Assembly: GCA_026396775.1 (NCBI GenBank)
Contig: JAPLWD010000067.1
Location: 1 to 8,732, forward strand
DNA from: Candidatus Gribaldobacteria bacterium
GTDB taxonomy: Bacteria > Patescibacteriota > Minisyncoccia > Minisyncoccales > CG1-02-41-26
Direction of reading: 5' to 3'
Length of the DNA: 8,732 bases
The notes beneath the pieces are model-generated. The model searched no databases and was not told where the DNA came from. It saw only the letters and a program-made list of their open reading frames with translations. The translations under genes were made by a program, and so were the position numbers. This document shows, one piece after another, positions 4,909-8,303 of this stretch (position 1 is the stretch's first letter; each line of letters opens with the position of its first letter).

Positions 4909-5974
4909 ATGGATTTAGAAAAATTAGCGCAAGCGTTAAAAGACGAGCCAAAATTTAGATTGCAACAAGCTAAACAGGCGATTTTTTTAAATTTAATTAG
5001 CGATTGGCAAGAAGCGATTAGTTTGCCTCAAATTTTGAGAGAAAAGCTCAATCAAGAGTGTCCTTTGGTTATTTCAACTCAAATTTTAACTTCTCAAGAT
5101 CAAAGATCAAAAAAAGCCTTAATAACTTTTGAGGATGGTTCATTAATAGAAACAGTTTTAATGGAGTATTTAGAGAGGGCAACAGTTTGTGTGTCTTCAC
5201 AAGTGGGTTGTGCGGTGGGGTGCTTGTTTTGTTCAACTGGCCAGCTGGGTTTGAAAAGAAACTTAACTAGTTGGGAAATTGTGGAACAAGTTTTGGTTTG
5301 GGCTAGAATTTTGAATAAAACTGGCAAGAGAGTTAGTAACGTGGTTTTTATGGGGATGGGCGAGCCTTTGTTAAATTACGAGAATGTTTTAGTGGCGGTT
5401 AAAAGCGGTTAAAATTTTAAATGCTAAAAGTGGACTAAATATCGGTATTCGGCATATTTCTATCTCAACCGTGGGAATATCGGATGGGATTAAAAGATTA
5501 GCCGATGAAAAAATTAGGCCCAACTTAGCCCTTTCTTTGCATAGCACCAATAATCAACTAAGAAGTCAGTTAATACCTGTAGCTCAAAACTATTCTTTAG
5601 TTGATTTAGCCAAGTCAATTGATTATTATATTAGGCAAACTAGGCAAAGAGTGATGTTTGAGTATTTAATGCTAGAGGGTTATAATGATAGTGAAGAGCA
5701 AGCGATGGAATTAGCTAGCTTTGTTAAGCAATTTAGAAAACCAGCCAGCTTTCCAAGCACTCGCAATTTTTATTTTGTGAATTTGATTGCTTATAACCTA
5801 GCTAGACTAGCTGGGGTGGAATCTTTGCAAGATTTTCGAGCGTCGGGGGTGGGGCAAATTAATAAGTTTAAAGAAATTTTACAAACGGAGGGTATTGAAG
5901 TGGTGCAACGCTATAAATTTGGTGAGGATATTAAAGGAGCCTGCGGGCAGTTGGCGGGAAAGGGAGCGAATTAA
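4909..5974 (+). pseudogene. rlmN: rlmN: dual-specificity RNA methyltransferase, split by a +1 frameshift
   Basis: RlmN is a radical-SAM enzyme that methylates C2 of A2503 in 23S rRNA and A37 in some tRNAs. The first frame (4909-5412, 167 residues) carries the CxxxCxxC iron-sulfur motif (Cys101, Cys105, Cys108), the mechanistic Cys94 and the GMGEP motif. It then stops early at TAA 5410-5412. The second frame (open from about 5402 to 5974) continues the same protein through ILNAKSGLNIG, the SLHS motif, the VNLIAYN strand and the C-terminal ACGQL cysteine that carries the methyl group. The shift comes from a 10-base tandem duplication of GCGGTTAAAA at 5395-5414. With one copy removed the reading is a seamless 351-residue RlmN of normal length, with the second mechanistic Cys at 342. 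No other damage is visible, so the lesion is recent, a reversible variant, or an assembly error. A GTG at 5471 could at best start a useless C-terminal piece. Confidence 0.92.
5395..5414 (+). repeat. 10-base tandem duplication causing the rlmN frameshift
   Basis: GCGGTTAAAA occurs twice head to tail (5395-5404 and 5405-5414). A unit of 10 is not a multiple of three, so the second copy shifts the frame and brings in the TAA stop. Reading through a single copy gives Val-Ala-Val-Lys-Ile-Leu-Asn, which fits the RlmN family at this point. Confidence 0.95.
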
Positions 5975-6508: not shown

Positions 6509-7357
6509 ATGGCAATTCCTTTTGTAGTTAATTCTTCGGGTGAGCAGGAACCTTTTTCAATTAAAAAGGTAATTTCATCTGCTCAAAGGGCAGGTGCTTC
6601 CGGTAAGTTAGCTAATAAGATTGCTCAAGCTATTGCTCGAAATGTTTATTCGGGTATCAGTACCAAAGAAATTTTTAAACAGGTTAAAGCTATACTAGAT
6701 AATGATGCGCCACCCGTAGCCTTGAAGTTTAGCTTAAAAGAGGCAATGCATTTTTTAGGACCAACTGGGTTTCCGTTTGAACAATATGTGGCGGAAATTT
6801 TTAAGCATTGGGGCTTTAAAGTTAAAACTAACCAGCTAGTGTCGGGGCATTGTTGTTCGGGTTACGAAATTGATTTAGTGGTTGAAAAAGAGAGTACTTT
6901 AAAGCTGGTAGAATGTAAATTTAGACAGGCCACGCAAGGTATTGTTCAAATAGAAGTAGCTTTAGCTAACTATGCTCGTTTTTTAGATATCAAAAATCGG
7001 TTTGATTACCAGAAGGATAAACTAAACAAGCGAGAATTAAAAAGTTTATTAGTAACCAATACTCGTTTTTCTTCCAGAGCCATTCAATATTGTGAGTGCA
7101 GTGGTGTAGAATTGTTAGGCTGGAAATATCCTAAAGGCAAGGGCTTAGAATACTATATTGATAATGAAAATCTTTATCCCATTACTATTTTGCCGTCTTT
7201 TCAGAAAGAATGGGGGGATGTTTTTAGCCAACAAGGCTTAATGATGGTAAAAGATGTTTTTAAGGCTGACCCTCAAAGTCTAGCACAAAAATTGGGCATA
7301 TCAGCCAGCCGAATTAGTTCATTGATCAAAGACGCTGATTTACTATTAGCAAAGTAA
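6509..7357 (+). CDS. ATP-cone domain fused to Mrr-like nuclease domain and C-terminal HhH
   Basis: This is a 282-residue protein with three parts. Residues 1-85 resemble an ATP-cone, the nucleotide-sensing domain known from ribonucleotide reductases and NrdR (VVNSSGEQEPFSIKKVISSA and following helices). Residues 88-205 look like a PD-(D/E)xK restriction-endonuclease fold of the Mrr type: a helix with Glu91 or Glu96, Asp122 in EIDLVVE, and Glu135-x-Lys137 in LVECKF. Residues 245-280 (VFKADPQSLAQKLGISASRI) resemble a helix-hairpin-helix that binds DNA backbone. The inference is a nucleotide-regulated DNA nuclease, possibly for repair or degradation of foreign DNA, acting in the cytoplasm. There is no adjacent methyltransferase, so classical restriction-modification is unlikely. 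It begins 4 bases after ybaB and is probably co-translated with it. All catalytic residues needed for the fold are present. Domain calls come from motif reading, not from a profile search. Confidence 0.7.
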   Translation: MAIPFVVNSSGEQEPFSIKKVISSAQRAGASGKLANKIAQAIARNVYSGISTKEIFKQVKAILDNDAPPVALKFSLKEAMHFLGPTGFPFEQYVAEIFKHWGFKVKTNQLVSGHCCSGYEIDLVVEKESTLKLVECKFRQATQGIVQIEVALANYARFLDIKNRFDYQKDKLNKRELKSLLVTNTRFSSRAIQYCECSGVELLGWKYPKGKGLEYYIDNENLYPITILPSFQKEWGDVFSQQGLMMVKDVFKADPQSLAQKLGISASRISSLIKDADLLLAK

Positions 7358-7370
7358 AAGAAGTTGTTTT

Positions 7371-7539
7371 AAATTACGAAATGAGGCGAGGAAAGTATTT
7401 TCAAGGCGCACTTCGAGGGCTGTTTGCATGGTTCCGCCAGTAGGCGGAAAACAGCCCGAGAACTGAGCGAAGCGAGCCTGCTGGGCGAGCGAGCGTCGCC
7501 TTGAAAATACTTTCCGAGCCGACTTGCCTTTCGTAATTT
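7371..7539. repeat. 169-base imperfect inverted repeat with nested hairpins
   Basis: The outer arms AAATTACGAAA (7371-7381) and TTTCGTAATTT (7529-7539) are perfect complements. So are GGAAAGTATTTTCAAGGCG (7390-7408) and its partner at 7497-7515. Between them lies a GC-rich core with its own nested stems: GGGCTGTT/AACAGCCC (7417-7424 with 7450-7457) and TTCCGCC/GGCGGAA (7432-7438 with 7443-7449) around an AGTA loop. A GCGAG-rich tract (7465-7495) fills the right side. No ORF explains it, and its composition is very different from the AT-rich flanks. It could be a non-autonomous mobile element (MITE-like), a structured RNA or a transcript-end structure. No flanking target-site duplication is obvious. 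Confidence 0.75.
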
Positions 7540-7563
7540 GGAGTAAATTATTAATTATTTTTT

Positions 7564-7676: not shown

Positions 7677-8303
7677 ATGGAACAGTTTGTGATTAGCTTA
7701 GGCGGATCAGTGGCTTTTGATAATGGACCCAATCTTGATTTTTTGAAGGGTTTTTGCGCTGTTTTAAAAGAAGAAGTTCAAAAAGGTAATAAATTTGTGA
7801 TTGTGGTGGGTGGAGGGTTAGTTTGGATTGGAATTTATGCTACCCGCTTAAATGCCCAACTTTTGGTGGCAATTTTAAAAAGTTTAGAGATTGCAACAAA
7901 ATTTAATGATAATTTAGACTTGGCCGAGTTTGGTCAAAATTCAATTATTGTGGGCGGAGGAGGAGTGCCTGGACATTCTAGTGATTTTACCACGGTGCAA
8001 ATGGCAGTTAATTTTAAAATTAAAAAAGTAATTAATTTAGGCAAGCCCGATTATGTATATACCGCTAACCCCGACAAAGATCCAACAGCTAAACCGATTG
8101 AAAAAATTGCTTGGACAGACTATTTTAAAATAATTCCAACCGAATGGATTCCTGGGATGAATGTACCCTTTGACGCTTTGGCGGCTCATTTGGCTTTAGA
8201 GAATAATGTGGAGGTGGTGGTAGCGACCGGAAAAGATTTAAGTAACTTTCAAAGTATTCTAAGAAATGGAGATTTTAAAGGCACTAGAATGTATGGAAAG
8301 TAG
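7677..8303 (+). CDS. pyrH: UMP kinase, archaeal-type, with an internal in-frame deletion
   Basis: PyrH phosphorylates UMP to UDP with ATP, feeding all pyrimidine nucleotide synthesis. The protein belongs to the amino-acid kinase fold: the N-terminal ISLGGSV loop (6-12), VVGGG (43-47), WIGIYATRLNAQLL (50-63), the GGGGVPGHSSD segment (93-103), and the ATP-side DYVYTANPDKDPTAKP stretch (125-140) all match the archaeal-type enzyme common in candidate-phylum bacteria. The length, 208, is short for the family (about 225-240). The missing piece lies between VVGGG and WIGIYA, where relatives carry roughly 20-25 residues (a K/N-x-A/F-R element, a helix and a D just before the WxGI strand). Here only Leu48-Val49 remain. 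The lost residues correspond to the Arg and Asp that bind UMP and stabilise the E. coli enzyme, so activity is doubtful. The frame is intact. The stop codon overlaps the next gene. Confidence 0.8.
   Translation: MEQFVISLGGSVAFDNGPNLDFLKGFCAVLKEEVQKGNKFVIVVGGGLVWIGIYATRLNAQLLVAILKSLEIATKFNDNLDLAEFGQNSIIVGGGGVPGHSSDFTTVQMAVNFKIKKVINLGKPDYVYTANPDKDPTAKPIEKIAWTDYFKIIPTEWIPGMNVPFDALAAHLALENNVEVVVATGKDLSNFQSILRNGDFKGTRMYGK

Follow-up and report, generated by a model that had tools for sequence, protein, structure and literature searches.

The exact 10-base repeat that splits rlmN in this Candidatus Gribaldobacteria draft genome is, in all probability, an assembly scar left where overlapping contig ends were joined without being merged. 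The window, the 8,732-nucleotide stretch of DNA analysed here, is the whole of contig C72 of the draft assembly G000 (88% complete; 749,637 bases distributed over 126 contigs). The assembly scar is favoured because an N-free 11-base duplication splits the only argS found in the same assembly, because three of the 15 N gaps found in this assembly have repeated flanks of 7–15 bases, because dnaX, rpsG, rpoB, and pyrH are also damaged, because the two of 17 exact tandem sites that break a frame by the predicted shift are those of rlmN and argS, and because both halves of rlmN look conserved in a gene that is unsplit in all strong-match relatives.

Repeat and split reading frame of rlmN

The residues 5395–5414 of the window form an exact two-copy, head-to-tail tandem repeat of the 10-base unit GCGGTTAAAA (TRF score, 40). 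As had been proposed in a sequence-only reading of the window, the duplication shifts the frame and creates a TAA (5410–5412), at which the first open reading frame (167 aa) terminates. The +1 frame is then open for 193 residues from stop to stop, with GTG at 5471 as its first listed start codon. The coordinates of the two parts of rlmN, the two copies of the unit, and the downstream pyrH gene are collected in the table.

Table. Features of the window bearing on the split rlmN gene and on pyrH
Feature	Positions	Strand	Remarks
rlmN, first part	4909–5412	+	167 codons and TAA; carries the Cys cluster and C94
GCGGTTAAAA, copy 1	5395–5404	+	In frame with rlmN first part
GCGGTTAAAA, copy 2	5405–5414	+	In frame with rlmN second part; likely duplicated overlap; single copy in G001
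rlmN, second part	5405–5974	+	+1 frame; carries SLHS and C342
pyrH, archaeal-type UMP kinase	7677–8303	+	Lacks 20 residues between GGGLV and WIGIY (junction, 7821–7826); second lesion on the contig

The N- and C-terminal halves match the RlmN profile TIGR00048 with 153.9 bits (profile positions 13–179) and 143.6 bits (177–345), respectively, and each alone falls short of the curated 290-bit cut-off, whereas 317.2 bits are reached by the intact gene of G001, a draft genome of the same genus. Thus, the gene resembles RlmN in the joint coverage of profile positions 13–345, in its cysteines, and in its synteny with the intact G001 gene, and differs from it in being distributed over two frames of this contig, with each half below the cut-off. 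The cysteines of the radical SAM CxxxCxxC cluster (C101, C105, and C108), together with C94 and C342, are all present in the translations, and we take these five residues to have the catalytic and cluster roles assigned to them in RlmN. TIGR00048 stands for a dual-specificity RNA methyltransferase, and the product is predicted to be an enzyme modifying ribosomal RNA. A residue count in the translations bears out the earlier statement that removal of one copy yields a protein of 351 residues containing C94, C342, GMGEP, and SLHS.

rlmN in relatives

G001, the sole same-genus relative available for comparison, has an intact and syntenic rlmN of 352 codons with one copy of the unit at the same place, and the genes downstream of rlmN follow in the same order as in the window (YbaB, a nuclease-like gene, pyrH, and a PCC gene). 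In a tblastn search with the G001 protein, each of the 25 strong-match relatives (L002–L026) gave a single stretch of rlmN free of internal stops; the stops counted in six of them are terminal and fall beyond the alignment. With these results, the sister-genome comparison suggested in the sequence-only reading has been carried out, and it finds the gene intact with a single copy in G001.

The earlier claim that neither half carries a second mutation also holds. The first part is 77% identical to its G001 counterpart at the amino-acid level (dN, 0.15; dS saturated) and the second part 70% (dN, 0.20; dS, 1.98); dN of five other genes of the contig ranges from 0.09 to 0.26. By these values, rlmN appears to have been maintained by selection until recently, or to be so still, as suggested by a measure that is rough given the high dS.

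The gene is patchy in the family, being present in 3 of 23 family relatives (G001, G011, and G017), some of which are incomplete, with a weak match only in G013. No near-identical full-length RlmN was found among 120 listed proteins (of 1329) in a search that scored the 7999 candidates with the most shared words, the best being 72% identical (G001) and the next 67%. When the G001 RlmN was used as the query against genome contigs, 14 loci were obtained; one is the record of G001 itself and the other 13 are ≤53% identical, in a search that may leave out the genome of the window and genomes very near it.

N gaps and exact tandem repeats in the assembly

The census covered 40 of the 126 contigs of G000 (208,550 bases), 26 of them unmasked and readable with a total of 176,513 bases, and 41 contigs of G001 (375,491 bases; readable, 31 contigs with 347,464 bases). 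The readable sample of G000 contains 15 internal N gaps of 3 to 89 N each, and that of G001 none. Identical bases flank three of the 15 gaps (15, 7, and 7 bases), one of these gaps lying within argS and one splitting dnaX; one further gap is flanked by 4 identical bases. Upon permutation of the flanks, three identical ends of at least 7 bases were obtained in 2 of 2000 sets. The repeated ends at three of the 15 gaps therefore indicate that the assembly of G000 put overlapping pieces together without merging the overlap. The remaining 11 gaps have no repeated ends, and this counts against the scar.

A local assembly error of this kind, in which the flanks of a gap overlap, Ns are inserted, and sequence is thereby duplicated, is described in a guide to genome curation ('Accurate and complete genomes from metagenomes', Genome Res 2020; PMC7111523), which also states that incorrect protein-coding sequences are propagated into public databases when curation is omitted. 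In G000, sequence likewise occurs twice at the join, with Ns at three gaps and N-free in argS. The rlmN site differs from the described error in having zero Ns, and the N-free form is seen twice here (rlmN and argS). The rlmN site has the features of an unmerged overlap, in that a short exact duplicate is a single copy in G001 and similar errors are found elsewhere in the assembly (argS, dnaX, and the three N gaps), also in genes whose loss would be hard to bear.

Exact tandem sites with a unit of at least 8 bases number 17 in G000 (1–10 in ten simulated sets) and 20 in G001 (4–15 in ten simulated sets); with a unit of at least 10 bases, there are five in 176.5 kb of G000 versus four in 347.5 kb of G001. 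An exact tandem repeat near the 10-base size is in itself not rare, and the excess in G000 over G001 is only mild, which again counts against the scar. Repeat counts alone were rejected as a criterion, being too weak to decide, since many short exact repeats are found in G001 as well. We also asked of each site whether the frames on its two sides are open and offset from each other by the shift that the unit predicts, a test that rests on small numbers: this holds for 2 of the 17 sites of G000 (rlmN and argS), and 1 of the 20 sites of G001 agrees formally but is located at an overlap between the end of one open reading frame and the start of a different one. The two overlapping frames are presumably murD-like and ftsW-like.

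Damaged core genes in the same assembly

Six frame-split candidates were obtained in G000, of which four are genes (rlmN, argS, dnaX, and rpsG) and two overlap a longer open reading frame. The nine candidates of G001 comprise seven overlapping a longer open reading frame, one small gene containing a TAA, and a possible upstream leader, which we take to be infC-like. An exact, N-free tandem duplication of 11 bases splits argS (contig C81), whose parts match positions 4–509 and 506–569 of the TIGR00456 profile; a second argS was not found in G000. The break in dnaX falls at a 10-N gap flanked on either side by an identical 7-base sequence, and the other dnaX matches in G000 (C76 and C47) score ≤62.9 bits and were taken as other proteins. 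The rpsG gene is split at a 14-N gap. The names of argS, dnaX, and rpsG are backed by family profiles.

The ileS gene (L096, G000:C81, 3–1763), which shares its contig with the split argS, has 17 residues fewer than in G001. This in-frame gap was considered as a lesion and left uncounted, since the stretch may vary naturally.

Four further core genes (rpoB, alaS, dnaE, and secA) were selected before the results were known. Only rpoB is broken in G000, with two in-frame stops and ~63 bases missing versus G001; dnaE and secA are open over the matched length, and alaS is truncated by the contig start, with a remainder free of stops. Damage to the core genes of G000 is thus patchy, and the finding that only one of the four is broken counts against the scar, as does the fact that G001 is not error-free. 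G001 has two copies of rpoB, the closer of which carries a TAG and the other of which is open; this TAG, together with the TAA in the small gene mentioned above, suggests that G001 also contains errors. The rpoB stops of the two genomes are nearly co-located, just after GEKALTAE, where ~63 bases are missing in G000 (C34, L134) and one TAG is present in G001 (C18, L083).

The pyrH gene of the window is the only one found in G000, a search for other pyrH matches having yielded none. Of the 20 residues that it lacks, at least 19 are kept in 119 of 119 other homologs, and an arginine among them in 119 of 119 (120 listed of 136 matches, minus the window's own). UMP kinase is normally essential, and the gap is therefore likely another assembly lesion and not the real sequence of the cell, although it could be a real deletion. 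Altogether, a living cell without all of these core genes (argS, dnaX, rpsG, rpoB, and pyrH) is unlikely.

Other features of the window

The conserved protein encoded at 6509–7357, between YbaB and pyrH, lies beside YbaB both here and in G001; its domain matches are to an ATP-cone, an Mrr-like nuclease, and an AF1548-like C-terminus. A palindromic repeat with 24-base arms (92% complementary) is located at 7370–7560. A search with its 191 bases gave 32 matches in the genome, of which three lie in the window itself; 13 matches, the window's included, span at least 160 bases, and the other 12 are 71–93% identical to it. From these matches, the palindrome looks like a member of a REP- or MITE-like family.

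Origin of the repeat

In the proposed formation of the scar, thin read coverage would have broken the contig inside rlmN, and read pairs or a gap closer would have set both pieces side by side. An overlap of 10 bases may have been too short for merging, and would then have been written twice. Such an N-free join of unmerged ends would leave an exact tandem duplication, as in rlmN and argS. The living cell is predicted to have one copy of GCGGTTAAAA and an intact RlmN, as in G001.

The sequence-only reading had offered three explanations, namely an assembly error, a very recent loss, and a reversible switch. The assembly error gains support from argS, the N gaps, and the other damaged core genes. 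We consider it unlikely that the repeat is a real and very recent 10-base tandem duplication, produced by replication slippage and inactivating an rlmN that is on its way out of the strain. The otherwise conserved state of both halves is compatible with such a recent event, and a real loss might be tolerated because 20 of the 23 family relatives, incomplete genomes among them, yielded no rlmN. However, the same or similar lesions occur in core genes of the same assembly, where they are unlikely to be real losses; in addition, the 25 strong-match relatives have no internal stop in rlmN, and the single same-genus relative has one copy.

Far less probable is the switch, in which gain and loss of the 10-base unit by slippage would turn the gene ON and OFF, so that one population would contain cells having the rRNA methylation and cells lacking it; it found no supporting evidence. 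Phase-variable genes with tandem repeats are known as contingency loci, and the rlmN site is like them in that the copy number of a tandem repeat sets the frame. Moreover, the one-copy gene of G001 is in frame, and contraction of exact repeats is possible in principle. Unlike contingency loci, rlmN has just two copies of a long unit, which make no hypermutable tract, and G001 has one copy, hence no tract conserved with varying copy number in relatives. Nor did the 120 listed proteins, out of 1329, include a second allele (best, 72%; 7999 candidates scored), and the observation is already covered by the assembly explanation.

A programmed +1 frameshift joining the two halves in translation, for which the +1 frame of the second half and the stop codon at the shift recall bacterial RF2 with its +1 frameshift at a stop codon, was considered and rejected as scarcely credible, because rlmN is in one frame in all 25 strong-match relatives, G001 included, and the exact duplication accounts for the shift without recoding.

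Significance

Three signs that occur together in one assembly, namely short exact duplications breaking a frame, N gaps whose flanks repeat, and damage to essential genes, provide a simple test that can be applied without reads. In fragmented drafts, a split gene should be compared with repeated contig ends before it is classed as a pseudogene or a switch. For this bacterium, the 10-base duplication in rlmN is most likely no real biological feature.
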